From NCBI GenBank assembly GCA_017506865.1, contig JAFCMP010000514.1:1736001-1800000 (forward strand): a stretch of DNA of 64,000 bases. The letters are read 5' to 3'. This DNA comes from Tribonema minus. Its lineage: Eukaryota > Sar > Xanthophyceae > Tribonematales > Tribonemataceae. Under the pieces are notes generated by a model. That model did no database searches, was not told the DNA's origin, and saw only the letters and a program-made list of their open reading frames with translations. A program made the translations under genes and the position numbers. How positions within the stretch are numbered: position 1 is the stretch's first letter; the number at the start of each line of letters is the position of its first letter. This document shows positions 1 to 58,656 of the stretch, piece after piece.

Positions 1-3000
1 GCCACAAATCAAGGCTGCTGAAAGTACAAGAGCGATATTAGTGATGTGTGACCGCCTACATTGAGCAATCGCGTGAAGTGGTAGCCGACACGTGGCGCAG
101 ATGCGCGTGGAGGCAGAACCCCAGTTTTGCCACAAATCAATAGACAGGCCTACTAAAGATGACCCCAGCAATATGATTTGTTCACAAATATCTAACATGT
201 AAGTGTAGTTTTGGAAAACAGTCAATCTTATACAAATATAACTGCCGACCTTGAGCAATCGCGTAAAGTGGTAGCTGACATGGCGCAGGTCCTCGTGTAG
301 GCAGAGTCCCCCAGCTGCACCAGAATTCAATCGACTGAAAATAACCTTAGAACCACATCATTTTTGTATGTTATCTCTACTGAAAATCAACATAAAACTG
401 AATAAACATGATGTAAAGAATGTGGCCGCCTACCCTGAGTAAGCGGGTAAAGTGGTAGCTGACGTGACGCGGGTCCTCTCGGAGGCAGAACCAGCTGCAC
501 CAGAATCAATAGAGGCCTGCTGGAAATAACCCAAACAGTATCATCATCATCGGTCCGTAATCACTGCTCAAGAATTAACGTTAAAGACATGTCACCGCCT
601 ATGTACCTTGAGCAATCGGGTAAAGTGGTAGCTGACGTGGCGCGGGTCCTCATGGAGGCAGAACCCCAATTGCACCAGCACACCAAACTCCGCCTCCAGC
701 ACCTGCTTCTTGGACACCTGCCACTGCAGGATCGAAAGAAATGTGATGGTGCAGCTTGTCAACACATGTGGGCAGACACAGTCTGGGGTAGCAAAGCCGG
801 CATCAGTAATATTATCATTAAGTTATGCTTCGAAGTATCGTGACAGTAGCATGACTGTTAAAACTTGAAGTGATTCAACCTCCACGACCTGCTTCTTTGA
901 CACCTGCCACTGCGGGATTGAGTGACGTGCCATGGCGTAGCTTGTCAGCACATGTGGGCAGACACAGTCTGGGGTTGCGAGTCGCTGCTAACCCTAACCC
1001 TAAGTGGCATCTTCATCAACACCATCCTGTCCGATCATGCCTACCTCTGGTCCCACCCCTCACCATAAGCGACTTACCCTACCCCCAACCCTAATTTCAG
1101 CCCATCCACGCTACAGGCGCTAGCATGGGGAAGTAAGTTTCATATCACCTGGCTCCTCATTGGCCCGGGGCCAGTTCACGCATGCTGGAACACGCTGCAT
1201 TCCGCTCCGACACCCAAACAGTCACTTTCCAAGTCTACGTATGGCAAAAGTATAGACCGGATGGACGGACAACGCATGCACAAATACAAAAAAGCAGTAA
1301 ACTGACTTCTGAGTCTATGAAGGACCACAGGCCGGGCAGCTTGCTGTTGTATCCGCTGATGCTCAGCGGCTCGTTGAACTGCAACAACAGAAATTGCAGC
1401 CAGCAAACAGAGGAAATTTGAGAGACTTTAAACAGAGGTAGTATGAGAGACTTGGAAACCTTGGCACTGCCTCGGCTGGAAGACATTGCGTCATCCAAGC
1501 GACGCTTCAAATTCCAGAAGTCACATGATCATTTCCAAAGTGAAACAACTTGTGTGTGCAGCAGTCAAGCAAGAAAACCTGTTGTTGCATCACGTCAAGG
1601 GCACCAGGGGCAGACCCAACGCGATGACACACTACAACACATGATACTTTGTGACATTCCATGCACTGGCATGGCCATCGGCAAGAGTGCGAATGATGAG
1701 TTTCTGACAAGCAGCAAACCCGAATAGAAGTACGTTAAAATACTTTGAATCATTCTCCGGGTAAAGGGTAAAACAGGTATTGTACACGCCAAGTTGCTTG
1801 AGGAAGGACAGTCAAAACCGAACCTTCAGTTCCAGTCATCGGGTCGCACCTGCTCCCTCATTTTGAATTGAAATGCGTAGTCTTTCTTGTACGCCACCAG
1901 GACGCATGCTGCCATTGCAAGCCGGCGGTTGGCCTTGGTCACCAGCGCCATGACCCAAGACTGAGCAATGACATGGTGACACATACATACCGTACGATGC
2001 ATTGTGCGCCATCTGGCAGATTTTCAGCAATGTGATAGTGACAGTTATGAGACACATAGAGGTACCTTATACATGGCGATGCCGTGCAGAGGTCATCGGC
2101 ATTTAGACACTTTCAAGGTGTTCACAAAGACACATGTAGATTATGCTTGCAAGTCCATGGACATCCACCATCTTGGCGCTTTCGCGCCCTGAACGAGAAT
2201 TAATCAGGAGTACCTTGTACGCCAGCAGCAGGCACGCCGCCATGGCAAGCCGCCGGTTGGCCTTGGTCACCAGCGCCATAACCAGCACTGAGCAAATGAC
2301 ATAGTGACGATCACCATCCAATGCATTGTACGGCAGAGAGAGGCACGTAGCCATGGCTCACCATCGTCATCAGGCAGATTTACGCAATCGATGTGATGGT
2401 GACATTTATGGGACACAAATAGAAGTACCTTATACGCCAGCAGCAGGCACGCTGCCATGGCGAGCCGGCGGTTGGCCTTGGTCACCAGCGCCATGAGACA
2501 CAGGCGCTCAAAATACACGCACGCCAGGGCCACGCTGGCCACCTGCAGCAGCGCTCGACAGAGTGCAACCGCCAACGCGTCAGGCGACAGGCACAAAGAT
2601 GGTGCAACCTGCATAGCTAGCAAGCTACGGTAGCGCTCACAGAGAGTGCGGTTGCCAAAATGTGAGGCTTAAGCGCTGCGCTGGCGCAACCCGTGCACCT
2701 GCACATGCTGGTGATTCCAAGCCAGATGCGCTGTCATGATATGAGCATTGACAAGGTGCTAAGCAGCGGTTGAAAGCCGACGCCCCCTCTTCCCCCCCCC
2801 CGCGGCCGTAGCCCGCCCGCCCCCCCCTCATGCACTTGAGGCACGGCGCACCACGATTTCACTACACATTTGTCGAACACCTGGCATACGGATCATATGT
2901 CAAGCATGCATATAGCATCTAGGTTCGCTCATGCCCCCCAGACGCCTCCAGTTCTGAGAGCAAAGCCGTGAGCAAAGTGACCCTAACCCTGACCCTAGCT

Positions 3001-6000
3001 CCAACCCCGTGCCCTCAAAGTCAAGCGTACTTTGCATTCAATACGCCTATCCGTAACCCTGACTCTACCCCCTGACCCTTGCATCAGCGAACCTGACTCC
3101 AAACCCTAACCCTCCTTATGCACGTGCCTCGACGCCAATGTGGTGGCAGCAACATTAGCCCTAACCCTAACCCTCCCTATGCACTTGCCTCGACACCAAT
3201 GCGGTGGCAGCCCGCCAGCGCCTGCCGCTTGATGGAGCGGATCTTGGAGAGCGTGAGGCTGGGCGGCAGGTCGGGATGGCGGTCCCTGAACTGTCGGTTC
3301 AGGTCTTCCTTCAAATCCCTGAGTACAAATGTGCAATGGCGCATGTGAATCAGCCATAGAGCACGCAGGCAACCCATACCAAATCCCAGCAGAGACGGTG
3401 TGCAGCATGCAGGCGGGACACAGCTCATGCAGGCAAGGGGTGGCGGTCCCTGAACTGTCGGTTCAGGTCCTCCTTCAGGTCCCTGCGGATGACAAGGGCG
3501 CGGTGGCGCATGTGAGTGAGACATGGCGCGTGCAGGCAACCCATTTCAGATCCCTGCAGACGACGAGGACACACTGCGGTGCGTAGTATGCAGGCGAGAC
3601 ACAGCTCACGCAGGCAACAAGGTCTCAGAGGGCGGAAGCTGCAGGATTATGTGCCCCATGACGAGGACGCATACAGCTTTTTCATTGAACACTCGCTTTG
3701 GCTTCGTGTGCTGCAACACAGACATGATTGTGGCCACACCAGCTGAGCGTGTCCACACCAGTAAGGCATGTATACCTACTTACCCACACCTCTGATTCTA
3801 GTGCCTCATCACCAGCGACAGGGCGTCGCTACAGTGCACCGCGGCATCGCACACATACAGTCGGGGATTGCGGCTGTAAGAGAGGGTGAGCGCAGGTGCA
3901 GCGCGTGACTCACTTTGGCTTGACGTACTGCAGCACGGAGCAGATGACGGGGCCCGTGTGCTCGTCCCCGGTGAGCAGCTGCTTGTGCCTGCCGACCGAC
4001 AGGGCGGGGTCATCCAGGACGCCGGGCTCGTAGTCGGGGACGTGCGCGCCGCCCTCGAGGTGGCGCAGCAGCTGGTGCTGCGGCGCCTCTTGTTCCTGAT
4101 GATATGCGTCAGAGTGGCAAGGATTGTTGTTCGCTTGAAGGAGCAATAATATCAAGTACAAAAACTCCAGATGATAAGATGTACTTCAACTGATAGTCAA
4201 GAGTGATGGGTGCCCGGGGTTGTAGTGGGGAATGTGCGCAGCGCCCTCCAGGTGGCGCAGCAGCTGGTGCTGCGGCGCCTCCTGCTCCTGATGGTGCGAG
4301 AGAGCGCGTGAGAGTGGCAAATGTGGTTGTTCTTGGTCTAGACGAGAAGCAGAAATCTCAGGTACAACTACTTCAACTGGTGTGATGTACTTCAACTGAC
4401 AGTGCCGGGTCGTCCGGGACGCCGGGGCTCGTCGTCGGGGACGTGCGCGCTGCCTTCGAGGTGGAGCAGCGTCTGGTGCTGCGGTGCCTCTTGCTCCTGC
4501 ACACGAGATCGCATATGATTTGGCTCCTTGAACTTCTGAGGTTGAAGTACCAAGTCGATGCCGGCAGGCCTGCGCGGCGCCCTCGAGGTGGCATAGCGAG
4601 TGGTGCTGCGATGTGACTTGCTATAAGAGATGCCAGAGGACATTCGTGGAGACTGGTAAGAACGTGCAGTTATTCTAAAAAGAGCACACTCTGGACGCGC
4701 AGTCCCTCGGAAGTGTACATCACAATACACTATGCACCTCCTGTGTTTGGGCTACCAGCTGGAGCTGGCCTACCGAACACGTGAGACCTTTCATACTGAA
4801 CACCCATGCCCCTCGAACGCTACAAAGCTCGCACACAGAAGTCTTTTGACCTGTGGATATGATGACACTGTTTGACTCGTGGCCAATGACTGCAACAGCG
4901 GCGACCACGGTTATTGGTGGAAGGCACTTGCGGCTAACCATCCTTTGTCACCTAGAGCTCTACGATCTTTTGATTTGTTTCCATGCGTACAAGTGGGCGG
5001 ATCCGTCCGCTACTGCCGCAGAAACGTCCTGCGCAGTGCGGACTTCACCTCGGGCTGACCATGTAGAGAAGACAACTGTAGCTGAAGCCACGCCAGTCCC
5101 TGCGCGGCACGCCTTCCGCAGTACACAAAGAGTTCATGCACACTTGTAGAGTACATCTAGAGTACATATCGCAATTAGCTAGATGGCATGGAATGAACAC
5201 GCATTATTTGGACCTCACCTCTGGCCTGGCAGCAGAGAGGAGGTGGCCGTAGCTGAAGACGTGCCAGTCCCTGCGTGGCACGCGTAAGGAGTCTGCGCAG
5301 CGCTCGTCCACGAGAGTCATGGTACGCACGGAGTACATGCGCAAGTTGATGGTACATATGGAGTACACATGGAGTACATACCGCAAGTCGCTAGCTGCCG
5401 CAGAACAAACATGCAATATTCGGACCTCACCTCTGGCCTAGCCGCGGAGAGAAGGTAGCCGTAGCTGAAGCCGCGCCAGTCTCTGCGCGGCACGCGAAAG
5501 GCCTCTGCGCCGCGCTCGTCCACCAGCTTGTGCCAGCGGCGGCGCAGCTCCTCCTCCTTGGGCTCGTAGCGGATGACGCTGCAGACGGCCAGCGGGTAGC
5601 CCTGGCGCGGCGGGCGCAGTGACAGGGCGCAGCATCAAAGCGGGGAACTTGCATATAGATACTTCCAGAGTGTACATGTATTGTTTGTGTATACCTGCAA
5701 GTGCTTGCAAACGATCGAGATTCATTGCTGCTCATAGCGGATGGCGCTGCAGACGGTCAGCGGATAGCCCTGGCGCGGCGTCAACGAGCAGCATCATGAA
5801 TAAACATTCACGTAATGGAGTACCTTTAAAGTACATGCATTGAAGTACAAGCTACTTGTGAAGACTGGGTTCTTCTAACCATACCCATACTGCAAAAGCG
5901 TACTGGCACAGGGAGCAGCGCTGACACCAGCGGACACCTGGCGTTCCCGTTCAAGCTTGATGACAACTTTATCGACGCGCGGAAGTGAGAGACTAGGGCG

Positions 6001-9000
6001 CCCCGCAAATTAGGGTTAGGATCAGGGTATGGGGTTAGGGTTAGGGTTCACGTGCATGCCACCCTGGCACGCGTGTCACGCATTGGTGTCAGGGGCGGTT
6101 CTGCATCCTCGGGCTCACGGCACACAGTGCTCTGGTATGTTCGCATGCGCATCATTGTATTACCCACCATATACCCATACATGCGCGTTCATCATCACCA
6201 GGATCATCAGTGCACTCTCTGCTTCTTTACGTGCAACGGCATCATGAAAACACATTTGATCCCGCTGACACAACCGAGTAGCGACGAGCATCAGCACACA
6301 CATGCCGAGCAATAAATGCGCCGGAGAGTGGTCGCAGATTGAACATTTCAGTTGTGGGCAGTTAGTTGCACATGGCGCCCATGAGCCCATCCGGCTGCTT
6401 AAAAAGATGTTGCTGAGGGTCGTCTTGAAAGCAATTCTAGAAGCATGCTGTTGATTATTAAAGATGACCTCGCCATGCCATGCATCGAATCAGGTGGCAC
6501 CTGAGTGCCTGTGAGAGAAGCAGACTTATGATGAATTTAGCCAACTTCAACAACTAGGGCATCATGTGCGTCATGCAGGAGACATGCGGCTTTGCCCTGA
6601 TCCGGGAAATAACTCTTTTGTCCGTCCAACCGCCCCTGATTATCTATGCGTATCAATAATCTCAGGGCGGACGCATTCACGTATGATAACCTTGGTGCCA
6701 GAGCAAAAACAGCCGTCCGTCCAAATCTCGGCTCAACAGGCGCTCATGACCCAGAACGAAAAACAGAAAGAAAAAAAGGAGAAGGCATCGCGTACATACC
6801 GTACGTACATACCATACGTACCTTTGTCCCGGAGAAAAACAGGCGTCCATCCAGCAGGCCCTGGTTGGCCAGTGACCTCTCCCACTGCCGTACTTCCGCA
6901 GCATCTTGGCCTGGCAGCTGCAGCAGGCCGTGCCTGACGGCACAGCAGCATTGCACATATTTACGTAAGTTCCTTGTTTGATAGTCGGCACAGACGCCAG
7001 TGTACTTGAATCGGCCATGATGCAATCTTTGGCAATTAGCTGAAAACCTTCAATGAAAAGCGCATCTACTTAGCGTGCAGAAGGCCGTGCCTGGCGGCGC
7101 AGCAGCATGGTAGGAGCACGAAGGGAGATGAGTTGAACGTCGGGTCAGGCCTCAGCAAAACATGTACGTCAAAGCATCATTGGGTGGACATAATGCTTCA
7201 TGTATGCACACAGCGCGCCAGCATCAGCTAACGTTGTCGCGCTCCTGCTGCGTCCTGTGCCGGCAGCTGCAGCAGGCCGTGCCTGACGGCGCAGCAGGAT
7301 CGCACATATTTGTATGAGCCCTTGTTTGATAGGCGGCAACGATGATGCCATTGTATGCGGATCAGCCATGATGCGATCTTTGGCAATTGGTTGAAACCTT
7401 TCAAGGAAAAGCACATCTACTTGGCTTGCAGCAGGCCGTGCCTGACGGCGCAACAGCATGGGAGGGGCGCCGGGGAGGGCAAGTTGAACTTCAGGCCAGG
7501 CCTCATCAAAACGTGTATCATCAAGTGGGCAAGACGCAGCATGTATGCACACAGCGCGCCAGCGCCCGCTGACTTCGCCGCGCTTCTGCCGCGTCCTGCG
7601 CCGGCAGCTGCAGCAGGCCGTGCATGGCGGTGCGACAGCATCGCAAACACGAACATACTGCGGAGGCAAGGATTCCATCTCATATGGCACAGCGCAGCAA
7701 GCCATGCTCGGCGCACCGGCACCAAAAGCACGGACAAGAGCATGTGTTCGATACCACATTCAACAAAGTTTGAAGCACTTGAGTAGCAATCATGCATTCA
7801 CAGCTGATAAAGAGTCTAACAATCACAGATTGTATTTTGACCCAGATGAAGAATTCGCAGTCAGACCGCACCTGAACGCGCGCGGCACGCGTACGTGTGT
7901 CGCCTCCGGGCCCCCCAATCTTCGCCCCGGTCCAGGGCTGGAGCCCCCCCTCTGGCCCTGCCAGACAAACAAGCAACGGACAACAGCGGGCCCAAGGGGG
8001 GGGTGAGCAATCCCGGATACCTGTCAGCGTGAGGCGCAGAACTGGTCCTGAGCACTGACGCCAGTGGAGTAGTTCGGTATGAAGGTATCTACTGCGCACA
8101 GCGACTGTACCATAGAATCCATGTGTCCGCGCGCGCAAGGCGCGCGCAATGACACTTCTGAGGCGATGCTCACATTTACATTCTTACGCGCTTCACGAGA
8201 TTGTTGCGGGTGCAAGCCCAAGAGCACTTGTGAATGAACACAGCACATTAATTAATTTTTTCAATTGCGTTTTTTCTGAGTTGAATTTTATTTACAACGT
8301 GACGTGAAAGCTGTTGTATGATGCGCAGGGTCTCAGCTCTGCCCTCATTTGCCCTCATTTCTGCAGCAGGCCCGATGTTCAGTGTCGCCCAGAATACAGA
8401 CAATACAGTGACAGTACACGGCAAGTTCAAGCAACTTGACTGTCCCTGCGCCGAGTGGGCCTACTGAACTGAGCGATGCCTGACCCTCATGCCCTCAACC
8501 TCAACACCAACTACTTCCAAACATAGCCTCCATTCACTTCAACGTCGCTTTCAGCTTCACCTTTGACTTTGCCTCTGCCTGGTCGGCCTCGTCGGCGCCG
8601 CTGAGTAATGCCTCATCCTCATCATGGCTTAAACCTCAACACTGCTTCCACGCCACCTGTAACTTCAACATGACATCAAAGCTTCACTCTTTGACTTTCC
8701 CTCCGCCTCGTCAGCCTCGTCGGCGCCGCTGAGCAAAGCCTCATCCTCATCATGCCGTAAAACTTCAACACTACACCACTACCTCACACCTGCCTGTTCC
8801 CAGCTTCAACACCACATCACAACTTCACCTTTGAATTTCCATCCGCCTCGTCCACCTCGTCGGCGTCACTGAGTGTTTTATCATCTTCATCATGTTGTTA
8901 CACTTTAAACTGCTAGGCTACTGCGCATTTTGCCTGTCCCTTTGCTTCAACATGACATCAAAACTTCACCTTTGACTTTCCCGCCGCCTCATCGGCCTCG

Positions 9001-12000
9001 TCCGCGTCGCTGAGCGGTGCCTCATCTTCGTCCTGCACTGAACCTCAACAACGCACCGCTACTTCGCCCTTGCCTGTCCCTGCCTCAATACACGTGTACA
9101 CACACGTGTACACACACGTGTACGTGGAAACTTCACCTTTGACTTTCCCTCCGCCTCGTCGGCCTCGTCCGCGTCGCTGAGCGATGCCTCACCCTCGTCA
9201 TGCCTTACACCTCAATTCTTCTCCGCGCTGATTCACCATTTTGCTTCAACAAACGTGTAAACTCACTTTTGACTTTCCCTCCGCCTCGCCGGCCTCGTCC
9301 GCGTCGCTGAGCGATGCCTCATCCTCGTCAGCAGGCTCGCGCACGCGCGCGTGGCCGGTAGCTCCATCCTCTTCTCCGTCTCTGCTGGCGCAAATGAGTC
9401 GAATGTGTGCGCGTTACTAGGACATGCATTTCAACAGTGACAAACAGCAGAGCACTCTGAGGCGCGTGTTCAAAGACTGTCAAGTGAAAAGTGTTGCCCT
9501 CGTGCGCCATGCTCGTTGCCAAACTTGCCATGCGCATCTGCATCATGAAGTTGTTTCATAGCCTAGGGCAGAAACACGCCCATCCTCTCACAACTGCCTG
9601 CAAATCGGATTGGACTGGCGTTGGCAAAGCTAACAACACCTGTTTGAACTCCAATGGTGATGCTCCTCAACGGCGCCCCCGACTCCTCGATAATCATGCA
9701 GTAGGCGCTAATCCCCAAGTGCCGTCTGGAAGTGCCTGCTATCACCCCCATGCACCTGGCCCAGAACTCTCTATTTCTCAAGTCGAGGCACGCTCAAGTT
9801 TTCATGCGTTTCAGGTAGATGCATACCCCCCGCCACACTGGAGCAACGCTCAGCGGAGCGCCTCTCCAGCGGTCAGCAATGTTCGAATGCAGCACGCGCT
9901 AAGCTGAGAGGGGCGCCTGCCCGTCACAGCTGCAACAACTCCACACTTCAACTTGAAGTAAACGAAGTGCGTCGTATCGCCCGACGGCGGTGCCCATTGT
10001 GGAACATCGCTGCTAGTGCAGTCATGCTCCATGCATTTTGTCGCTGCACAGACTGTGAACTTCACCTTGAAGGACACCACAACACTCATGCGCTCTTGTA
10101 CATTGTGCTTCAGATACACACATACTCGGACGCGGCGACGCCCCCATCAGCATCGCTCAGCAGCGCGCCTGCGCAGCTCTCGACATCAAAACAGCACCAC
10201 CGCCAATGCAGCAGTGACCTCCAGCGGTAGTATACCTAGAAGTGCCTCCTTGCCATGCCCCTGCACCTCTTGGCTACACAACTTTTGCTGCACAGGCTGT
10301 GCAATTCGCATCAAACTACAGTACACTTGAACTTATGCACGTTTGAGCGTCGTGCATCAGATACATACAAACCCGGATGCGGCGATGCCCAGCGCGCCCC
10401 CGTCAGCGTCGCTCAGCGGCGCGCCCTGCTTGTCCTGCACGGACTGTGCAATTCACATCACCCTAACCCCTAACCCTAACCCTAACCCTAACACTGCAGT
10501 ACACCTGAACTCATGCACCTTGAGTATTAAGCTTCAGGTACCCTTATACATACCCAGTGCCAATGCCGGTTCCCGTCGCGCCCCCGTCAGCATCGCTCAG
10601 CGGCGCGCCCCTGCCCGCGGACCCCGGGCTGTGCTGCGCCGCCCTGGTGCCGTGCTCAATGATCTGGGGGGGCGCAAGGCGATCAGCAGCAGCGCTCAGT
10701 TTATTTGTACAAGGAGGGGGTTGTGCAAGACCGCAGGGAGGGTGGGGGGGGGGGCGTGCAGCAGCGCATGCTCGCTGTACAGCCAGAGTCATGCGCACAA
10801 CAGCTGCGGCCACACGTACAGAGGCGTGATGCTCCCCGTTAAGATCGGCGGGCACTCTCATGCCCCCGCCGGGGTCCCCACTGCAGCGCCGCTGCGATTT
10901 CGCGGTTGCGCGCATATGCGCCGCGCGCAACCGCAAAGGAAAGGACGGAGCTCCAGCGGGCACATTACAGCGCATCGTGCAGAGGCTGCTGCGCAACGCC
11001 AGACATATCGCATGGTTCCCATTTGAGACATCAGAACATCGCCCCCCCTCCCCACCACCACCCTCCCCCCCCCCCCCCCCCCCTCACCTTGGCCTCCTGA
11101 CGCATCGGTATCGACGACAGGAACGCCAGCAGGTTGCTCAACCCCCCCCTTCCCCCCCTCGGCCCCCCCCACTCCCCGTCCCCCTCTCACCTTGGCCTCC
11201 TGGCGCATCGGTATCGACGACAGGAACGCCAGCGCCGCAATCTCGCGCGTCGCCCACCGCTGCCGCGCCTGCCCTCGGCCCACGGGGTAAATGCGACGCC
11301 GCTTTGCAGGCACGGATCCGTACGCCATGCTCCGCGCCGCTGCCTCCGGCGCTGCTGCCGCCGCTGCTGCTGCTGCCGCCGCGTCCGCCGCAGCGGCGCC
11401 GCCGGCGGGCGGTTGCGCTGGCGCGCGCGGCGGCAGGGGCGGGGGTGCAGCGGGAAGCTGGTGAGGGGCAAGTGTAGATATCTGGCGCAGCGGTGGCGAG
11501 CGGAGATTCGAGGGGTTTTCCGCGACGAGCATCCTGCGGCTGCCACGGCCGCAATGGCACGAGTGTTTTGACCGAATGGCGACGAGGCGCTGCGCGGGGA
11601 GGCGCCTCTGCGCTGCACTGCGCAGCTCAGCGTGCGGCGAAATGCTCCCACACCGCGCTGCGCACCCCCTTTGCGGTGCGGCGCAGGAGCTCTGCACCTC
11701 TGGACCGCTGTCTACGCCCTTGAATTGCGGTGGAGTACTCCTCTCAAAGTTTGACCTCGAGAACAGCGGGCACAGGCGTGGGCGATTGCGCAGACGCTAG
11801 CACGCTGCTGTAGACAGTGCTTTCTGCAATGGTCGCAGGCTTTGCAGGAACAGTGTCGCCCGCCGCTTTGCCGCAGTTTGCGAGTGTTGAGCACACGATT
11901 ACACGCTGTCTCCGCGGCAGTGCTGCACGCTGTGCGCAAGCTCCGACAACAGCAGCGGCACCCCTGACCGCTTGCTTCTACAACCGGATGTCACACCGCA

Positions 12001-15361: not shown

Positions 15362-15395
15362 TTTGTGTGCACTCGAGCTGGGGCGCCTTCTGCCA

Positions 15396-15434
<39 letters not shown>

Positions 15435-27815: not shown

Positions 27816-27960
27816 CTGCAAGATTGTCGTGTTGAGGATTTGAGCAGATTCTTATTTCTGGACTGTTGGAAACTACAAGCATCCTGCTGCCGTGGTGCCT
27901 GCCGCTGCCGTTGCCGACGGCGTTGTACCTGCAGCATTGTCATGTTGAGGTTGCAGCAAG
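27600..27960 (-). repeat. Edge copies on both sides of exon 27815-27691
   Basis: A donor-edge copy ([15 protein letters not shown]) lies at about 27655-27600 and an acceptor-edge copy ([13 protein letters not shown]) at about 27940-27890. The pair shows echoes on both flanks of one exon. Confidence 0.65.
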
Positions 27961-28849
27961 CTCTTTTATAACTTTCATAAAACACCAGCATTGTGCGCGG
28001 TGACGGCGCCCAAACGCGGCGAAAGCGCCGTACCTTCTCCAAGCTGAAGGAATGCTTTGAGCAAGCACTTTGATTTTTTTCCTTGGAATGCTAGATCGTT
28101 AGTGTTTTCATTGTTGGTAAGGTTTGGATAGATGACACCAGCAGGAGCAGGTTTTCAGCGCGGGAGCGAAGCGCTAACCCTACTCCTAACCCCAGGCAGA
28201 GGCACGCCATGAGCTATGGGAAGTGGGCACGCACGGCACAATGACACCGGTTTGCCGATGCGATGCTGCCATGCAGCCATCGCAACCGTGCACAGCACAG
28301 CAAATAATTTACTCCGCATTTATGTGCGTTTGGATGATCTCGTTGGATGCATCGAAGTTTCAGATGAAGAGAAATTTCATGCTTGATAAATCGTGGATTG
28401 TCCCGTCTTAAACCAGCAGGAAGAATCGATGTAAAAAAATGATAAGGAAAATTGATTATCAAAAATATTGATCTAAAAGTGAAAAAGCACAGGAGATGAG
28501 TGACGTGGACCCTGCACAGCGAACTTACATTACATACCTCAAGAGTATACTTCAGACATATGTTGTATACAACATACAACACTTGAGTACCTCATTGTCA
28601 ATGACATACAGTGACAGCCGCTGTATTACACCACTGCATGCCATTCTTTGACATTCATGTAACCCATACTATGCATACCTGATGGAAAAATTGAAGCCGC
28701 GCAACAAAGCTTACATACGGCAACAGAAGACCGACGCCAGTCGTGTGCAGTCAGAAGTGAATGTCTTGGTCGGTCTACCGGCAAGCGCAACCGCCGTTAT
28801 CGTCAAGCAAACGGCAGCGAGCATGCAGCTGCCATACGCTCCAATACAT

Positions 28850-31444: not shown

Positions 31445-31525
31445 TATGAATTCTCGCTCAGGGCGCGAAAAAGCCCAGATGATTGGCATCTAGCTGTACG
31501 GAATGTGTACTTTTTATTAATTCGC
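31445..31525 (+). repeat. Dispersed ~90-bp repeat, copy 2
   Basis: This copy carries the core CAGGGCGCGAAAAAGCCCAG and is flanked on both sides by GTACTTTTTATNAATT words. It lies in the region between the modular gene and its possible tail exons, opposite in orientation to the local gene strand. Confidence 0.6.
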
Positions 31526-32541: not shown

Positions 32542-32564
32542 CCCCCCCCCCCATCGCAAAGCCT

Positions 32565-32830
32565 CACTTGAAACCGAACAGGCCCGACGAGTACACGCTG
32601 AGCCCTGCTGCTCCCTCCCCCCCCCCGCCCCCTGCGCGGAGCCTCACGCGAAGCCAGACAGGCCCGATGAGTACACAGCACGCTCGCTGCCTGCGGGCCA
32701 CACCGCGCTGCTGCCCCTCCCCCCCCCTTCCCTTGCCCCTCCCCTCCCCTCGCCCCCCCCCCCCTCTTGCACCCCGCCCCCCCTCCCTCTCACACGAAGT
32801 CGAACAGGCCCGACAAGTACACCGTGCGCG
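32565..32830 (-). repeat. Three copies of exon 33217-32910 donor edge
   Basis: VYTSGPFGF-type endings recur as VYLSGLFDF, VYSSGLSGF and VYSSGLFGF at about 32825-32790, 32700-32645 and 32600-32565, separated by long poly-C tracts (plus strand). Confidence 0.7.
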
Positions 32831-32909
32831 CGCTGCCCGCGGGCCACACCGCGCTACTGCCCCCCCCCTTCCCCCCTTGCCCCCCCCCCCCCCCCCCTCT
32901 TCCTCTCAC

Positions 32910-38638: not shown

Positions 38639-38679
<41 letters not shown>

Positions 38680-46838: not shown

Positions 46839-47170
46839 CTGCATGGGGGGGGGGGGGGGGGTAAAGGTGAATGCGCAGCCAATGCAGTGATGCGCGCCGT
46901 CGTTTGAATCTGCGCCGTGCAGAGGTGGTTTGGGCATGAATTTCTCGTGAGGCAGGAGAACTTTGGCATCTAACTGGGCAGCGTTTCGATGTAGTCGCGG
47001 TCCAGGAACAGGACAAAATTGTCGGGGAACACTGCACGGGGGGGGGGGGGGGCGAAGGGGGAAGGGGAGGGGGGGAAGGCGGGTACGGCGAATACGCCGA
47101 CGATGTAGTGATGTGGGATCAGGATAAAGTTGTCGGGGAACACTGCATTTTTCTGGGGGGGGGGGGGTCT
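46235..47170 (-). repeat. Echoes of exon 46838-46617 on both flanks
   Basis: Donor-edge copies (FDVNHPGG-like) lie at about 46530-46480, 46365-46310 and 46275-46245, separated by CCCTAA-like sequence. Acceptor-edge copies (VFPDNFVLFLDRDYI-like) lie at about 47035-46985 and 47150-47100, each preceded on the sense strand by a poly-C tract. Confidence 0.75.
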
Positions 47171-48980: not shown

Positions 48981-51900
48981 ATGAGGGGCGGGGCCTCGTC
49001 TGGAGACCCATACTTCGTCGCCAGAGACCAGGTGCGCGCTGCAACTCGACACATGAACTGAACTGCTAGTTTGATGCTTTTCCTTGTGCAGCTCTCCGAG
49101 CAAGGCAGCTAGCGTCTCTGTGCAGCTCTATACAATCCTGCAGCCCAGCTTTGACACTGCTGCCAGTATTTCATATGACCACGAGCGTGATGGTGCTTTC
49201 CGTATACAAAACTCAGCAAGCTTTGCAAGCCAGCAGATGACGAGTCCGGTTTCATCACACATGATCTGCAGAGCAGTTGCCGCCGAGTACACACCTGTGG
49301 CCGAAGTACAAGTCTCTATGGAGGTAGGGGTGCATGACACTTCTGTCAGAGTGTCACAGACATGATCGCTCACACGAGCTAGCAAAGCAAAGAGCGGTAA
49401 TGCAGAGAGAAAATGCAGCAGTATCAACTGATCATCATCTCCCAGCCAATGGCGTACCAGTGGCTGCGTAGGCAAGAGCCATCAATGGATTCCACCGCAG
49501 CCCCTGACTCTATCTTTGTTCACCTCGGTGCAGGTGGCAGCGAAGATCGCCGCTGTTCAGGCTAAGCATGCACAGCTAAATGCAGCGATTGACAAGGCAC
49601 GGACGCTCACGGACCGCGATGTCAAGGAACTCAAACCAGTGTAAGTTGCTGCCACTGCAACATAAATCAATGGTCCGCTGCAGTAGGTCTTGGCGGTTTT
49701 GTGCAGGTATCTGGTATAGCTGTTGCAATGTCGGTGACCATAATCAGTGACAGCAGCGTGATAGCGGCGTGCTGCTGCAGAGCGGTCTTTCGCTACGGAT
49801 GCTTATACTTGATGAACTCAACATATGTCAGCCCCGACTTTGCAGTTAGACGAGAGGAGGGCGAGCGCAAGCTGAACTCCACACATCAGCGTTGTGCTCT
49901 GCTTTCAAAGCTGGCCATCTGTCCCCGTTCAATGCAACATCGTGCGAGGTCTGGCGACGGTGATGGGGAGGCTGCATGATCCGCAGTAAATCTACACCAG
50001 GGCAGCGCAGTCCGTTTCTCGCGAATCAGCACTGGGCGCCACATTGTTTCATTTAAAGTGCGTTTTCCTCAAGTGCGCTTTCCTCCAAGTAGTGTATTGT
50101 CATCAACGCTGTCTCTAACGCAGCATGGCGGGGGTTCTGGAGACGGCGCAGCGGCGGCGGCACGACCTTGCAGCAGCAGCAAGAGAGAAGGGCAATGCTC
50201 ATCGCCGCACTCCACGTCATATAGTGTGGTCATCTGTAACCGACGCCGTTGATGCGCTGACCGCGCTGCGCACCTCGTAACTTCAATTGCTCAACTTCAA
50301 CTGTGCCTGACCGTCTGTAACCGCTGCTGCCGCTGGCGCGCGCAGCGTGGCGCGCGATCTGGCAGCTGCGCGACCTGAAGCAGCAAAGTACATAATGGCA
50401 ACGCTCAGCGCCGCACTCCACGTAATATAGTGGTCCAATCGACGCCGTTAATCATCCGCTGATGCTGCGCACCACATATCTTCAACTTCCCAACTTCAAC
50501 TGTGCCTGGCCGCCTGTAACTGTCGCCGCTGGCGCGCGCAGCGTGGCGCGGGATCTCGAGACGGCGAAGGGGCAGCTGCGCGACCTGAAACGCACAGTGG
50601 ACTATGTGGAGAAGGACAGGGCGAGCTTTCCGCACATTGACGACGCCGAGCTGCGCGATCGGAAGGCGTTTCTCAACGCGCAGAAGAAAATTTTGAACGC
50701 GATCGTGGCGGACACGGAGGGCGACAAGCTGGCGGCCAAGCTGGAGAAGGAGACGGTGAGCGCTGCTGTGCCTGAAGTTCAACACTTCTTTGAAGTTGAA
50801 GTTCAACGCACCTTCCACACGGAGGGTGATAAGCTCGCGGCCAAGCTGGAGAAGGACACAGTGAGAGCGCTGCTGCGCTGTCGCAGAGCGCTGACGCTGT
50901 TGTTGTTGAAGCTCGACACCTTTTTTTCAACACGCCTTTTGAATCGGAGGGCGACAATCTCGCGGCGAGACGGGGAGACGGGGAGACGGTGAACGCTGTT
51001 GCTCTGTCGCGGAGCGCTGTCGCTGCGTGCAGGGGCAGCCAGTGCTCTGCGACGTGTGCGCACGTAGCTGTGCGTGTGTTCGGGGATGCGCGCCGTGGTG
51101 TCGTGCTCGCTGAATCGCAGAGTGGCAGGGGTCAAGTACTTCCAACTGCTTACACAGTGGAAGTATTCGGGCGTATGTACGTGCTACATAGCGGGCGTTG
51201 TGCACTGCTGTGGTATTGTGTGTGGGGGGGGGGGGGCAATGGAAGTCCAGCTGGACGGCGGGACGAGACGACGCGCACGCGGTCGGTGCTCAGCAATGCA
51301 TGTGCAACTGCTGCTGCCGTGTGCTGAACTTCCACTGCGCGCGTACATATGGGAGCTGCGTTGAGCTTCTGGGTCTCTGCAGCCGATGCCCTGCCGCTTG
51401 TCAGTGCTCAACGGCGCGTACACGTCTCGCCACAGCAATCAGTTCAATACACGTTGGTAGCGCCCTTTATCCAAACTTCAACTTGTGGCTGCTTCAACTC
51501 GTGCGGCACAAAGACACGCCGCCTGCTCCTCAGCGCGCTTTGCCGTGTGAGATACGCCTGAGCTTGACCAGCGCCTTGATGCGCCCGTAATTGACGAGCT
51601 TTGTCATTCTTCAACTACTTTTAGTACTTCAGAGTAGTTACTTTGCCTATCTGGTAGGTAGTCGTACCTTCCAATATATACCGTCAAGTCTACAATTGAG
51701 CCCCATGGGGCGACTTTTTTTATAATTTCCCGAGCCCTCCTAAAATGATGCCCCACCCTTTTTATTTGCTGATGAAAATATGTCCTCCCCTTTTTTGCAC
51801 ATGCACATGCAGCATAACGTGCCCTCTGCGCATGCGCATGCTGCAGGGATTATCCACTCAGTGACTCGTGCTACATCACCACATTATGTGGGCACTTAAA

Positions 51901-54900
51901 ACAACGCGAAGCAGCCATTGCCAGCAACGTGCAGAGCAGGCAGAAAGGCAGCAAACACACAAAAAGGCAGCAAATACACGAAAGCATCATCACTGTCGCT
52001 TTCAGACTTCATCTGCACGACAACCTGCTGCGTTGCAGGGGAGGCTGAGGCTATTGCGAAGACCGCCCGGTTACCTGAAGCAATTGCGGAAGACGTCCAG
52101 CATGCTGCTTTGCTTGCCTTCCTGTCCCTAACGCAAAGCTTTGTTCATAGCTTGCTTGACTTTAGACGGCCTACCACCAGCTCCTGATCGGTCAGCCATC
52201 ACGTGCTTACAACGTTTTTTGAACAGTTACCGCCACTTCAAGTTCGAGTTGAACCGGCTTTTGAGGTTCACGGTGAAAACTGCGTGCTGCCGGCGCACTT
52301 GCGCACACCATGCAAGCCTGAACTTCAAGTGTGACGCACCTGGAGCATCGCGCCTGCATCTGGCAGCGACATGCGTGAAGGAAAGGGCTGGCAATCGATG
52401 CCCGTCACTTCATGATGGTGTGAGGTAAGGTGAAATGGCTCAACTATTAATGCGCCCCACCCTTTTTTCCTCCATATATTAATGACGCCCCACCCCCCTT
52501 TTTTCGCTCTCATAAAAAAGTCGCCCCATGGGCTTAATTATAGACTTTACGGTACTTTGAAACGTCACCCCATGATTGTTGTGGTGCGCCTGACGCGCAG
52601 GCGGCAAAACGCGACAGCTACAGGAAGGGCGACCTCGGCGCCAAGAGCAACGCGGAGGCGGACAACACGGAGTTCATACACGACCAGCGCTCCAACAGGA
52701 TGGCGCACATTGCGCGCCAGGACCAGGTGCGCAGCAACAGCGCTCATTCTCAAACCATAGGTAGGTATGTAGCATATCGACCGGTGCAAATACACGACCA
52801 GCGCTCCAATATGATGGCGCACGTTGCACGTCAGGACCAGGTGCGCGGCAGCAGCGCTCATCCTAGCTTCAACCCGTAGGTAGGTATGTATCGTATCGTC
52901 AGATACACATATATACACAGCCCGTGCTCCAAGATGATGGCCCACGTTGCGCGGCGGGACCAGGTGTACAGCAGCAGCAGCGCTCATCCTCGCCCCGGTC
53001 GTCGGCAGGTACGTAGGTAGCGTATTGACCGACACAATTACACTACCATCGGTCCGACGTGATGGCGCATGTTGCGCGCCAGGATCAGGTGCGTGGCAAC
53101 AGCGCTCATCCCCTAGCCCCAACTGTAGGTCTGGTTTTGTAGCGTTTTGACTGGTGCACGTACACGAACAGCGCTTCAACACAATGGCATGGCGCACACG
53201 GCGCGGCGGGATAAGGTGCGCGACAGCAGTGCTCATCCTGGCCCCAACCGTAGGTCGTTGGCGTGTCTTTGCGGGGGTGCGTCGTCGCTCTCGGTCTGGC
53301 GAACCTGCCTGCGCGCGGGGCGCGATCACGGGCAGAGATCACAGGCAGAGTTCAACTGTACATGGAGGCGCAGCGGTTAGAATCGCTGCTGCCCTCGCCA
53401 GCAAGTCGCCTGTTGAGCGCTGCTGCAGTCGCTAAGCACTTTCTCTCCATTTTGATCGCATGCTAGGTTCAGGGTCGCGGTTAGGGTTGTTGTGAATTCA
53501 GGGTTCAGTAAGCCCATACGCGCGGTGCGCCGCGTTGCTTGCTCGCACGCGGCGCACATACATGCATACCGCACCTCGTATGCATGCCCCGCCTTTGGAC
53601 ACGGCTAGGGTTCTGGACTGCGCTGTTGCTGTTGAAGTAGTGCATGCGGTGCCGAGTGTGGCGAGTCGCCGGGCGGGCGCAAGAGCTAGGGTTCGGTTTA
53701 GGGTTAGGGTTAGGGTGAGGGGGGCACAAGAAGCGCCAGACAATGGCACGTTGCATGATGCGATGTTGGCTGCTTGTTATCTTCAGCATGTGCGGCGTGC
53801 AGTGTGGCGGCTGCTACGCCGCCGGCGATGCGGGTCGGCACGAGCGACAACGCGGCGGACCTGCTGTCTGTGTGTGCCAAGGGTCGGGGTCAGGGTGAGG
53901 TGAACCCACGGGCGTGGCTCGCGCGAGCCACTGCACGAATGAAATATCATGTCTCATCCATCCGTGCGGGCACCTTGAAGTTGAGCCCTGAGCACTTGAG
54001 GATGCGGGTCGAGCAACTGCGTGTGCTTTTTTTGAGACGCGTCGTGCGCTGCGGTCAGGATTCCGGAGGACCTGGGGCAGCACGTGGGGGCCGCATTGGC
54101 ATAGATGCGTCCACACCGATCACGAGTTTGTGGGCCGGCGATTGCGTTCCGTGAGTGACGGACGCTGTGACGCAGACTCATCCCACGTGACGCGTTCGCT
54201 CTACTGAATGAAATCATGCGTGCACTTCAAATGCGCTTTGTTGCGTGGTCAGGACCTGGAAGAATTAGGGGAGCACGTGGACCGCGTCGGCATGCACGCG
54301 GAGACCATCAACGAGGAGCTGAGAGATCAGGTGCGTCACCTGCTGAAGTTTGTTTAGCGCTGCAGCAGCGCCACATCCCTTGGTTGCCACCTGTACGCAC
54401 ACTCTGATTGGATGCTTCAACTTCAATCAACAACTTCTTGTGACATTTGCGCTGTGCAACATTGCGGAGGCTTGTAACATCAAACAGTACTAGCATCCGG
54501 TGGCATCGGCATTTGGGCAAACACGAAGACTTCTAAGAACGACAGGACCATCGCTCCTTCCGCGTGCGTTGACATTTGTGTTTGAATAGCCCAGGGCGTT
54601 GTCTTGTCCGCAGGCAACGCATGCGGAAGGAGCGATGGTCCTGTCGTTCTTAGAAGTCTTTGTGTTTGCCCAAATGTCGATGCCGTGGATCGCTGTTTAA
54701 GATGTGACCGCGCCGCCTGTGTTGGGGGCGATGTGGAGGCCGCATGGGCTGTCTTCGCCTTCGCATAGATTGCAGCAGATGGCGTTGTTCCTGAAAGGAC
54801 GATGCGCTTCGGGTTGTTGGCCATGGCTGGTAGGGCTGGAGTGCAGCGTTACGAGGTCCTTCATGGCGCTCGCCGTTTGTGTGACGCCGGCATCTTCACG

Positions 54901-57900
54901 GAAGCTCACGTGTAGGGTTGCCGACCAGCGTATAATGGGATTTCCTATATGGCGTATAACGTATAATTATAACGTATATATAATCTATACTGCGTATAGC
55001 AACGTATTTTAAGTAGCCAAAACCTGAAGACAACCTCCAATTAAAAAAAAAAAAGTATTTGCGCATGATAGTGCCAATCTTCAAGAGTCCATACCACTTG
55101 TCACATCTTACCTACGCAATCAAATCTGGCCATTAGCAGCATTGCCACTTGTTCAACTTTGCTGCCACACCAAACCAGCATTAATGTATGCACCCACGCA
55201 TTCAGTGTATGCGCCTTGAGCTCCAAATGTCAACACGATGCCAGGCTTGTTCTTGTGAATAAATAATGCACAAACAGTGGTGCTGCAGATGTCATGGCAT
55301 AGCAATTGCGAATGCACACAGTCAGTCTCAGGTGCATCACAGCCAGTCACCAGCAGCAGTTCAAACACCAAGTATGTGTCAGTCCATGCAATGCAGTGCA
55401 TGCTCAACATGCTTTGATCCATCTCAACAGTACTGTTCACCAGGCACCAAGCGCGACATCAAAAATTGATCCCTGCAAAATGACTGTAGGTCAAACAAAC
55501 TGAACCATTTTTCCATCTTTGTTCGTGCGAAATTCACGGCGAATAAACGAAGTTCACCATCAAAAGTGAAGTTCTGGGAAGTTCGGTTCGTCACTTGCAC
55601 GACCTCAGCACACACGCCACAAAACATTATAGCTGCAGAGGCCTCGCATAGCTGATGATGACCGTAGCCTTACATTCGTCACGCATACCATGCGTTGAGG
55701 AGGCGTTGTCGAGCAGCAAGCCAGGCTTGTGCTGGGAGGTCACGGCTGCAGCTGCTGATTGAATGGACCAGTGAGTGCAGCTCACTGACTACAGCGTGCA
55801 GGTATTTGAGGTATCGAGATGTACCGACCCTTCAGATGCTTCGTTTAACGCAGGGGCGTGCGGCAGCAACTCTGCGCTGCTTCCGCATCGCGGAAACACG
55901 CCATATGCGGCGAGACAGGCATTATCATTAGAGTGTCACAACTATTGCTATAGTTAGTTATCTGGTATTGATGCTCAACCATTTGTTAGTTATTCGTTAG
56001 TTATTCGTTATTTAATATATATTCGTTATTTTATCGTTGCTGCTGTATACTACCAGTAATGCCTACCATCCTGGGATGAGGTAGCGTTGGAGAGGAGCTA
56101 CTTTCCCCTCTCGGACTTGCAAAGCATCTCAGTCGCCCTGTTGCGAGTTACTTTAGCTCTAATGCAGTCGCTACAATGCTAAGCTTTGCATAGATCATAC
56201 CCTAAAGAGGTCACACAAACAATAAGTTAAAACAACTTCATGTTGAACTTCAACCAAACCTTGAACTTGGAAACATTGGTGTGCAGTGTGTGTGTGTCAA
56301 GATGAGGAGCTCAGAGTGGGCGGCCGACTAGTATGAAAGCCAGCACTTGAATGTGCAAGCCAGCTCTCGACGTGCTCCCCCGTGCAAATACTCGGCTCTC
56401 GTGCCCCCCCGTGCAAGTCTTGTCTTCGTGTTTGGTCATGCCTTGCGCAAGCATAGCAGAACTGGCGACAGGGTCAGGCAGTGGTGGCGGTACGCTATTT
56501 GTCACACCAGCGCATCTCATACGTGCCGCCATCGTCGTCACACGGTGCAGCAGAGCTCGTGCAAACGAGCTGCAGAGCATTTGCACAAAAACGCGAAACA
56601 ACGAATTTGCGTCGAGCGCTCTCGGTAGTTGTTCGTTATACTTTGTATAACGAACAACTAAAACTAACGAAAACAACGCGCTTTTTTATAATTCGTTATC
56701 ACACTCTAATTATCATTATAACTCAAAGCGTATATCGAAATCGATATAACGATTATTATAACGTATATATACCTATAACGTATAATATACGTTATACGCA
56801 GTTGGCAACCCTACTCACGTGTGCTTCAGCGTGAAGTGTGACTGGACCAGGTGACTGTCGTGGTAAGCGCGTGTCATGGTCTCTTTTCGTACCTCAATAC
56901 CTTCTTCAACTAGTTCTTGAAGTAGAGCAAGGTTTTCAGCGAGGGGCGTGTGGCTAGCGAGCAAGAGCGGGAGCGCGTAGCTAACGGGCGGCCGAGCATG
57001 GCATTGTGCACAATGGTGCTGTATCTAATGCAGTACAACAGGCGGCGAGGTATGATGTTCAGCTTTTTCAACGCTGCACGAAAGAGAAGTATCATCCGAG
57101 CTCTTCAAGGTATAGTGAGACAATATTGTCGATAACGGTAGGGTACGCAACGGCGTCGCAAGCACGATCATTAGTGCATAAATGTTTGTACAGCATCGAT
57201 GCGCTCCTGCAACGTGGGTATGCGCTCATGGCCTCCAAGAACGCTGTTTCGCACAGCTGGGCCGTACATACATGCCAAGTACACTTTCCATCACTGGCTC
57301 TAGTTGAATCTATCGCTCTCGCTCTGTTGCAGCGCTGTGATTCACACGATCGCGTACCAGATTACCCCATTGAACGTTGTGCTGCCGAAATGCAGCTGCG
57401 TATACTTCTACAAGCAGATTCCAGCCCGTCGGGCGCTGAAACCTGTGTATAGCTGGCCGCCCCAGAGCGTCTGCAATGAGCGATTCATACAGCCACGAAA
57501 AGGTCTGGCTGTTCCTGCTCTCTTCGTGCCACTCTTAGGGTTAGGGTTAGGGTTAGGGTTAGTCGATCGCAGCAGGAACATAGGCCCGCGACACAAAGGG
57601 CATGTAGTGTTGCCGAAGTTGCGAAGGTGCTGCTGTGCGCAGTGAGCGCACAACTGAGTGCCGTCTGCACATCGCTCAGTTTCATCAGTTGGTTCGTGCA
57701 AGCATCATGTTCTGACTCCTGCCCAGAACTGTCAATAAGCTCCTCGGGTGCTTTGCGATGCTCTACGGCATCGTTGGTCTGCAATCTCAGCAGCACTACG
57801 ACACGCATGTGGTCGTATTGTGATGCCCTGCCAGCTGAAAGCTGACGTGATCATCGACTCAACACCCGAGGCACTCTGCGCAATGCGCCATTGCACGCAG

Positions 57901-58626
57901 CTCATCCCACGCGTTAGTGTCGCTACCGGTTGCGCGTAGACGCTCGTGTATCAGTGCCCCACGCTGGCTGCCTTCGCACTACGGTAGTACAGAGTCCGCA
58001 GGCCTAACGATGGGCACTGCGCTCCACAAGCCCCGTGCCATGACCACAGCCAACACACAGACGCAGCGTCAGGTCTGGCACGAGGCGGGCCGATCCTTGC
58101 GCCGCAGCCTTGGCCACAGGCATACTCTCACATCGAGTGTGACTCGCCAGCTCACTCAGTGACTCACTCATTGACTCACTCACTCTCTGCGCCCGCCAGG
58201 CCTGCATGCTGGACGACCTCAACGAGGACATCGCTGGCTCACTCAGTGACTCACTCATAGACTCACTCCAGTGACTCACTCATTGACTCACTCACTCTCT
58301 GTCGCCCGCCAGGGCCGCATGCTGCATGCTGCACGACCTCAACGAGGACATTGTCACGACGCACGAGTCGATATCACTGGCATCACTGGCTCACTCATTG
58401 ACTCACTCCAGTGACTCACTCATTGACTCACTCACTCTGCGTCGCCCGCCAGGGCCGCATGCTGGACGACCTCAACGAGGACATTGTCACGACGCACGAG
58501 TCGATGGGTATGGTCATGGGCGCCATGGCCAAGATCCTCAAGACCAAAGACCGTGCGCAGATCTGGCTCATTGTGACGCTCGTCGTCATCCTCGTCATAC
58601 TCGTATTTCTGGTCGTGTACACATAG
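48981..58626 (+). CDS. STX6: Syntaxin-6-type Qc-SNARE, complete, six exons
   Basis: A tail-anchored SNARE of the trans-Golgi/endosome fusion machinery (syntaxin 6/10, SYP61 in plants). Exons: 48981-49031, 49534-49640, 50542-50755, 52601-52726, 54253-54330 and 58453-58626 (TAG). All phases agree, giving 249 residues, the usual family length. The start is the ATG at 48981, because MRGGASSGDPYFVARDQ matches the conserved DPFF start of syntaxin 6. The N-terminal three-helix domain holds DRDVKELK, ARDLETAKGQLRDLKRTVDY and DDAELRDRKAFLNAQKKILN. The SNARE helix runs from MAHIARQDQ through EELGEHVDRVGMHAETINEE and LRDQ/GRMLDDLNEDIVTTHES. The glutamine of LRDQ is the expected zero-layer Q and is the last residue before the final intron. 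A single C-terminal membrane span follows KTKDRAQ (IWLIVTLVVILVILVFLVVY). Introns 3 and 5 carry transposon-like elements. Identification is firm; the compartment is inferred from the family. Confidence 0.95.
50105..50990 (+). repeat. Echoes of syntaxin exon 50542-50755
   Basis: An acceptor-edge copy (GCGCAGCGTGGCGCGCGATC) lies at about 50335-50385 and a weaker one at 50110-50170. Donor-edge copies (EGDKLAAKLEKDT, then EGDNLAAR) lie at about 50819-50862 and 50946-50985. The spacer TTGAAGTTGAAGTTCAAC separates them. Confidence 0.75.
51681..52552. mobile_element. TA-flanked inverted-repeat element (MITE-like) in syntaxin intron 3
   Basis: Terminal inverted repeats of about 45 bp start CCGTCAAGTCTACAATTGAG on the left; the right end, reverse complemented, starts CCGTAAAGTCTATAATTAAG. 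Both run into a CCCATGGGGCGACTTTTTT segment. The dinucleotide TA flanks both ends, as for Tc1/mariner-type insertions. Subterminal ATGCCCCACCCTTTTT words recur inside each end. No transposase was seen in 872 bp. The right end lies 48 bp upstream of the acceptor for the exon at 52601. Confidence 0.8.
52785..53225 (+). repeat. Four copies of syntaxin exon 52601-52726 donor edge
   Basis: RSNMMAHVARQDQ-type endings recur at about 52795-52840, 52920-52965, 53040-53088 and 53165-53215, spaced about 120 bp. Each is followed by GTGCGC or similar and a CAGCAGCGCTCATCC motif. Confidence 0.8.
54504..54682. repeat. Near-perfect 68-bp fold-back (inverted repeat)
   Basis: Arms 54504-54571 and 54615-54682 are reverse complements with 3 mismatches in 68 bp, separated by a 43-bp spacer. 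It would form a long hairpin in DNA or in the syntaxin pre-mRNA. It adjoins the BED-like fragment, whose open frame runs into the right arm, so it could be the remnant of a transposon end or a local inverted duplication. Confidence 0.85.
54690..54909 (-). pseudogene. Transposase-like (BED-finger-like) coding fragment
   Basis: The minus-strand frame reads SFREDAGVTQTASAMKDLVT, then NNAICCNLCEGEDS and LHIAPNTGGAVTSHLKQ. The C-x2-C pair followed by NTGG and SHLKQ resembles the BED zinc finger at the start of hAT transposases, although the last zinc ligand is not clear. It is interrupted on its 5' side by the hAT-like element whose target duplication begins at 54905. It is likely a relic of an older element. 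Confidence 0.35.
54913..56813. mobile_element. hAT-like non-autonomous DNA transposon with 8-bp target duplication
   Basis: The left end TAGGGTTGCCGACCAGCGTA and the right end (reverse complement TAGGGTTGCCAACTGCGTAT) form imperfect terminal inverted repeats. CTCACGTG occurs immediately outside both ends (54905-54912 and 56814-56821). An 8-bp target duplication is typical of the hAT superfamily. Both subterminal zones are AT-rich with repeated TATAACGTATA words, unlike the GC-rich surroundings. The 1.9 kb interior has only short open frames and no recognisable transposase, so it is probably mobilised in trans. It lies in the last intron of the syntaxin gene. The intact target duplication suggests a fairly recent insertion. 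Confidence 0.85.
57534..57562. repeat. Interstitial TTAGGG array
   Basis: Four to five TTAGGG units on the plus strand lie in the last syntaxin intron. Another is at 53694-53716 in the same gene. Plus-strand TTAGGG arrays also occur at 6010-6048 and 44800-44826. Confidence 0.85.
57566..57690 (-). pseudogene. RING-finger-like fragment in antisense within a syntaxin intron
   Basis: One minus-strand frame reads CADGTQLCAHCAQQHLRNFG then NTTCPLCRGPM. This matches the second half of a C3HC4 RING (C-x2-C pair, helix, CPLC pair), although the expected His ligand is missing. The first Cys pair is not seen upstream, and the frame runs straight into a TTAGGG array (Asn-Pro repeats) at 57534-57562. It is best read as a captured or decayed fragment of a ubiquitin-ligase-type gene, or as an exon of an unseen nested gene. 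Confidence 0.35.
58150..58445 (+). repeat. Copies of last syntaxin exon start with GACTCACTCA microsatellite
   Basis: CAGG/CCTGCATGCTGGACGACC (58196-58235) and AGGGCCGCATGCTGCATGCT (58310-58375) are decayed starts of the exon at 58453. They are embedded in TGACTCACTCATTGACTCAC repeats that also precede the real acceptor. Confidence 0.75.
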
Positions 58627-58656
58627 CACGCCGCATCGGCGGCGGCGGCGGCAGCG

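Follow-up and report, generated by a model that had tools for sequence, protein, structure and literature searches.

The origin of intron DNA is an old question, and intron size is usually put down to transposable elements, while direct repeats in series are known from minisatellite arrays and duplicated exons. The present work concerns partial copies of exon edges that lie in series within introns of Tribonema minus (Xanthophyceae), in a stretch of 64,000 nucleotides referred to here as the window (assembly GCA_017506865.1, contig JAFCMP010000514.1, positions 1,736,001 to 1,800,000 of the forward strand), and in unrelated genes on other contigs of the same genome. Single duplication events have been linked to intron gain in the literature. 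In the portion of PMC4974935 used here, the potato RNA-dependent RNA polymerase (RdRp) gene carries a tandem genomic duplication that crosses an intron–exon boundary and gives rise to a new intron whose donor is cryptic. The likeness to T. minus lies in a direct tandem duplicate over one intron–exon boundary together with its splicing signals; the difference is that the excerpt describes a single new intron, whereas in T. minus many exons of many genes are involved, with several copies per edge, all within existing introns.

The Rogers model, as described in the available sections of PMC4974935 and PMC2891723, derives new introns from an AGGT segment of an exon that is duplicated in tandem. 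It shares with the arrays described here a short tandem duplication neutralized by splicing, but the T. minus unit spans an existing junction and adjacent intron, instead of being an AGGT segment that is wholly exonic and bounded by two new sites. Introners, in the excerpt of PMC9860276 considered, are likewise a genome-wide source of intron DNA, whereas in T. minus each copy sits beside the exon edge that it matches; the terms Tribonema, tandem, Ectocarpus and stramenopile do not occur in the text of that paper. A search of the 158 Mb with the array at window positions 1–600 reported only the array itself and a neighboring copy (a single array, searched by a method that skips very common words). 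A minisatellite homogenized by unequal exchange differs as well, in that the T. minus copies are closer to the exon (mean identity 0.887) than to each other (0.821), with no excess similarity between neighbors. Duplicated or mutually exclusive exons differ in that a whole exon with both splice sites is found in only 1 of 96 copies. To our knowledge, nothing like this junction-anchored pattern of edge copies is known. No earlier description turned up in the top-listed open-licence literature of PubMed Central, which does not by itself show its absence in print.

All tests were made on one genome, the T. minus assembly of 158 Mb in 554 contigs, in which the exons were defined by sources outside the earlier note that had drawn attention to the window. 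T. minus database proteins served for genes B and D, homologues for gene A (the query and some core ends of which come from our own drafted exon–intron model), and Pfam matches for genes on other contigs. Each edge was probed with its exonic 45 nt against the adjacent intron (genes A, B and D, HSP70 and kinesin) or the adjacent 1 kb flank (CCT/Cpn60), and was called positive when its score exceeded those of all 100 shuffles of the target sequence. The controls were the reverse complement of the probe and the intron or flank on the wrong side. For five genes of the HSP70/kinesin set, unrefined Pfam core ends were used.

Across the four gene sets, a same-strand partial copy lies beside the exon at 79 of 167 edges, against 7/167 for the reverse complement and 3/152 on the wrong side. 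Genes B and D have 19 positive edges of 30 (reverse complement 1/30, wrong-side intron 2/26), and gene A has 12 of 17 (1/17 and 0/16). On other contigs, the CCT/Cpn60 genes yielded 21/60 (reverse complement 3/60, wrong side 0/60), with 4 of 38 probes from exon interiors also positive, and the HSP70 and kinesin genes yielded 27/60 (2/60 and 1/50). The edge-copy phenomenon is thus real and is found across unrelated genes and contigs. The earlier note had placed copies at nearly every exon, which describes the introns well, as 14 of the 15 in genes B and D are flanked by at least one positive edge, but overstates the edges, about half of which are positive. Its proposal that the same signal be sought on other contigs was borne out by the CCT/Cpn60 and HSP70/kinesin counts.

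The same arrangement can be seen by eye, without any probe and without a systematic count, in partial Pfam matches, where stretches from exon starts recur upstream and stretches from exon ends recur downstream (for example at C51:21979-22639 and C246:700950-701488). Self-alignment of the window, counting local high-scoring segment pairs of at least 30 bp within 3 kb, gave 136 direct and 8 inverted pairs; nine random 10-kb loci together contained 85 direct pairs and no inverted ones, with repeat coverage of 3% to 37%. Edges that end at a stop codon carry a copy of the end of the coding sequence in 1 of 7 cases, located in the glycine-rich tail of a doubtful gene end; the five judged cleanest have none (0/5), two of these five having donor-like words before the stop. 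This result hints that copies need a splice junction, in a sample too small to conclude from.

The anatomy of the copies was determined in seven genes with 45 introns and refined splice sites. Here, 48 of 90 edges carry copies, 96 in all, and these lie in 34 of the 45 introns, whereas the reverse-complement control gave 3 copies. Positive edges have one to five copies, where two to six per exon had been proposed, and the successive spacing (median 125 bp, 10–90% range 86–208) agrees with the 80 to 200 bp that had been noticed. The alignment crosses the splice site in 90 of 96 copies (44/47 at donors, 46/49 at acceptors). Copies had been said to stop 30 to 100 bp into the exon: they are indeed partial in 95 of 96 cases, one alone covering at least 90% of its exon, but their reach is shorter, with a median of 42 bp and a 10–90% range of 20–66 bp.

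The same seven genes contain 49 arrays, whose placement was compared with chance. Forty-one of the 49 touch an exon edge, 20 at donors and 21 at acceptors, with 8 at neither, while uniform placement predicts 10.9 (standard deviation 2.7), and the observed number was reached in 0 of 200,000 simulations. The boundary repeats therefore exceed uniform intron placement, and repeated tandem duplication across splice junctions, which the earlier note had proposed as a source of intron DNA, receives support from this anchoring. Among arrays whose best identity is at least 90%, 13 of 15 touch an edge against 3.8 expected, again in 0 of 200,000 simulations. With unrefined cores the counts were 42/49 overall, 14/15 at 90% or more and 5/5 at 95% or more. 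Telomere-like inserts, which served as a control for placement, show no edge bias, 5 of 16 lying within 150 bp of an edge against 4.1 expected.

An apparent enrichment of this kind could arise if tandem duplication were uniform along genes and the conserved exon simply kept one copy recognizable. Exon and copy differ most often at third codon positions (0.106, 0.089 and 0.169 for the three positions), as expected of a constrained exon, and anchoring in the class of at least 95% identity falls short of significance. The gradient of repeats inside introns speaks the other way. In introns of at least 900 bp, the share of 40-nt windows repeated on the same strand of their own intron is 0.66 at the exon edge and 0.44–0.47 within 200 bp, and it declines to 0.29 at 400–500 bp, 0.07 at 500–700 bp, 0.03 at 700–1000 bp and 0.01 beyond 1 kb. 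The reverse complement stays at 0.00–0.02 throughout, so that the signal is near background more than 700 bp from the exon. When exons and all detected exon-derived copies are masked in the same introns, the repeated fraction still drops from 0.31 in the first 60 bp to 0.01 at distances above 700 bp, against 0.01–0.02 for the reverse complement, in a masked set that may still contain more decayed, undetected exon copies. Because the gradient persists in this intron-derived sequence, exon conservation is unlikely to be its cause. Together with the edge-bound arrays of at least 90% identity, these values make uniform duplication very unlikely.

The explanation we favor is that T. minus introns probably lengthen from their ends through tandem duplications that recur in series, are biased to splice junctions and are templated by the exon edge. 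The duplicated segment would be about 125 bp long and lie across the exon–intron junction, comprising some 40 bp of exon end plus the adjacent intron. At each event the outermost donor or acceptor would stay in use, and a partial exon copy with its splice site would enter the intron; the database proteins, which contain this outermost site, point to its use. Later events would restart from the exon-side unit, building a comb or star of copies around the exon in which older copies decay. Duplications of whole exons, which would change the protein, are probably purged, as their near absence (1/96) suggests. The arrays of at least 90% identity and the masked test point to a mutational origin of the junction bias, for which DNA breaks associated with transcription, splicing or exon chromatin, and their repair with little microhomology, are a possible cause. 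Eight nearest copies adjoin the exon unit to within 8 bp; at their junctions the run of matching bases is 0 or 1 bp long, with overlaps of 2 and 6 bp in two of them, so that long microhomology is not needed. More tentatively, and with somewhat less than even expectation, we suggest that a DNA-level duplication process, possibly coupled to transcription or splicing, targets the splice junctions themselves and not exons or introns in general, and that introns would then lengthen from both ends.

The history recorded in the copies is broadly in line with serial events. In columns matched across 21 edges, mean identity is 0.887 between exon and first copy, 0.886 between exon and second copy and 0.821 between the two copies, with exceptions in single arrays, and over 90 pairs neighboring copies are no more alike than distant ones. 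From these sequence comparisons, the copies look derived from the exon and not from one another. Divergence within arrays is unequal (chi-square 91.3, 48 degrees of freedom, p 1.7e-4), which argues against a single burst. The process is probably still active. Clear ladders of divergence with distance, which the earlier note had suggested looking for, are present in some arrays. Identity to the exon runs 0.98, 0.89, 0.89, 0.88 and 0.79 outward at the donor of gene B exon 6, and 0.98, 0.94, 0.93 and 0.83 at the donor of intron 4 in locus L044; in both, the youngest copy lies nearest the exon.

A star around the exon would equally fit duplications that were random at first, with edge copies later refreshed by gene conversion from the exon while intron-only arrays vanished. 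Gene conversion probably occurs in this genome: by eye, the HSP70 paralogues L047 and L048 (C522) are nearly identical through an intron and exon that lie beside clearly diverged introns. Under such a history, however, young intron-only arrays should still be visible, and they are rare, with 2 of 15 at identities of at least 90%, one of which is in fact a junction array with 4 bp of exon. Conversion among copies should moreover keep intron-only arrays alike too. We therefore regard this history as unlikely.

It may also be asked whether the copies are kept by selection, as spare or decoy splice sites or as alternative exon ends that diversify proteins. Differences between copies do show some third-position excess (0.171, 0.145 and 0.203 by codon position; p 0.001 over the seven genes), and the acceptor AG is retained slightly above the value given by identity squared (39 of 46 copies, 0.85 against 0.78, a difference whose significance was not tested). 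The donor GT, on the other hand, is retained in 32 of 44 copies (0.73) against 0.77 predicted. The earlier note had the copies keep their splice dinucleotides; GT and AG survive about as decay predicts, and the retained dinucleotides are no evidence of function. Of the 71 copies whose site is intact, 6 are usable in frame. Copy spacing is divisible by three in 22 of 71 cases, near the chance third, and whole-exon copies are all but absent. With retention near the decay prediction and so few copies usable in frame, there is no clear sign of selection either keeping or destroying copied sites, and maintenance by selection appears highly improbable.

In the seven genes, array spans, which include the sequence between copies, amount to 15,666 of 45,138 bp of intron (35%), and those of edge-touching arrays to 13,478 bp (30%). 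Introns with copies have a median length of 925 bp (n = 34) against 495 bp for those without (n = 11; p 1e-4), and copy number climbs with intron length (rho 0.76). Edge-touching arrays span about 30% of intron length in these genes, and their copies stand at many stages of decay and can be compared one by one, which opens the growth of introns to study. A mutational origin of the junction bias would point to an unrecognized connection of DNA duplication with splicing or exon chromatin. Annotation may be affected as well, as a simple exon–intron model trained on genes B and D was misled by partial exon copies that have good splice sites and labeled many of them as exons.

Several observations weigh against growth by junction-biased duplication. 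Arrays of at least 95% identity touch an edge in 4 of 5 cases against 2.1 expected (P 0.07), which is not significant and too few to decide; in the fifth, which spans an acceptor, the exon contributes just 4 bp. Of the 48 nearest copies, just the 8 mentioned above are contiguous with the exon unit, and over all 48 the unaligned gap has a median of 47 bp. Copy–copy identity is 0.817 over 90 pairs, against 0.770 under full independence from the exon, so that some copies have a common history or gene conversion acts. A slowly evolving exon would lie near the center of the tree in any case, and closeness to it does not prove exon origin. The first copy is closer to the exon than the last at only 11 of 21 multi-copy edges, a weak rank gradient which indicates that new copies do not always arise beside the exon and which qualifies the ladders. 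The third-position excess between copies is odd for neutral intron sequence, with exon-directed conversion and past coding use as possible causes. The correlation of copy number with length is open to the objection that longer introns also have more room for copies.

Finally, differences between genes are strong. Leaving out gene A, 67 of 150 edges are positive in 16 genes or gene groups (heterogeneity p 0.0006), and a further pair of HSP70 paralogues, outside the 167 edges and compared for direct events, has copies at 0/16 (reverse complement 1/16). Two CCT/Cpn60 groups also lack copies, at 0/4 and 0/8 edges, and the share of positive edges shows no link with GC content at third codon positions (rho −0.01). 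The process had been described as genome-wide and not gene-specific, which is upheld as to its presence in unrelated genes on other contigs and not as to its evenness among them.

Within the window, gene D encodes a syntaxin 6/10/61-type SNARE on the forward strand (48981..58626), with exons at 48981-49031, 49534-49640, 50542-50755, 52601-52726, 54253-54330 and 58453-58626, and the six joined exons equal the T. minus record P0001 with 100% identity over 249 aa. Acceptor-edge copies of exon 3 occupy 50119..50598 (exon edge included), and its donor-edge array, consisting of the exon edge and two copies with a first spacing of 105, lies at 50712..51025. The donor edge of exon 4 is followed by four copies (52676..53256 with the edge), the nearest 114 bp off, with GT in 4/4. 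The acceptor edge of exon 6 has two copies (58151..58505 with the edge).

Gene B, an amino-acid/polyamine permease on the reverse strand (18249..30022), comprises the 11 exons of T. minus record P0012: 30022-29912, 29107-29049, 27815-27691, 26755-26531, 26061-26009, 25395-25273, 24284-24206, 21871-21657, 20151-19997, 19257-19083 and 18362-18249. The joined-exon query matches this 478-aa record with 100% identity over 89% of the query. Exons 1 and 2 were taken from the record, lie within repeats and are less certain; a further 3' exon of the query is absent from the record, whose 3' end may be incomplete. Five copies each follow the donor edges of exon 6 (24580..25343) and exon 8 (21037..21751), and exon 8 also has an acceptor-edge copy (21772..22065, exon edge included). 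Exon 9 has three acceptor-edge copies (20093..20650, exon edge included) and, at its donor, a tandem duplication of a 56-bp unit with 94% matches (19909..20019). Exon 10 has three acceptor-edge copies (19231..19517, exon edge included). In both genes B and D every junction has a single solution that gives the database protein, and all are GT-AG; wherever an exon had been drafted before the records were used (gene B exons 3 to 11 and all six of gene D), draft and record agree on which copy is the exon.

Gene A, on the reverse strand with approximate ends (604..11304), encodes a cyclin-domain protein, which presumably resembles the CABLES family. Its homologue P0132 has 47% identity over 98% of the query, and no T. 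minus record of the gene is among the 120 proteins listed as matches. The exon cores are 11304-11191, 7942-7871, 6917-6822, 5604-5426, 4032-3914, 3320-3183, 2545-2429, 1390-1307 and 726-604. Donor-edge copies lie downstream of exon 726-604 (51..678) and of exon 2545-2429 (1886..2496), and an acceptor-edge copy lies upstream of exon 3320-3183 (3273..3617), exon edges being included in each case. Gene C, whose exons were not defined by homology, has local direct repeats among the high-scoring segment pairs of the window.

Other repeats occur in and around these introns. Telomere-like (TTAGGG) interstitial runs number 18 in the window against about 0.06 by chance, and 15 were found in the nine random 10-kb loci (L003-L011); within introns of eight genes, the G-rich form is on the coding strand in 13 of 16. 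Such repeats were considered as markers of breaks at junctions and rejected, given their lack of edge bias. The region of the first exon of gene B has an inverted copy in its own first intron (29263-29351 and 29909-29997, 88% over 89 bp), which was also seen as a reverse-complement probe match. Two elements with terminal inverted repeats lie within introns, at 22276-22835 in gene B (repeats of 31 bp at 97%) and at 51679-52554 in gene D (42 bp at 90%), and the repeats of both have TACCGT in common near the outer end. A possible third, noticed by eye only and not in the output of the inverted-repeat search, is located in the last intron of gene D at about 54913-56813 (GTAGGGTTGCC ... GGCAACCCTAC). 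Downstream of gene D, an inverted pair at 60749-61230 and 63052-63540 is 80% identical over 491 bp, and near it sequence downstream of the gene is directly duplicated, with pieces within 58655-59161 and 61536-62001.

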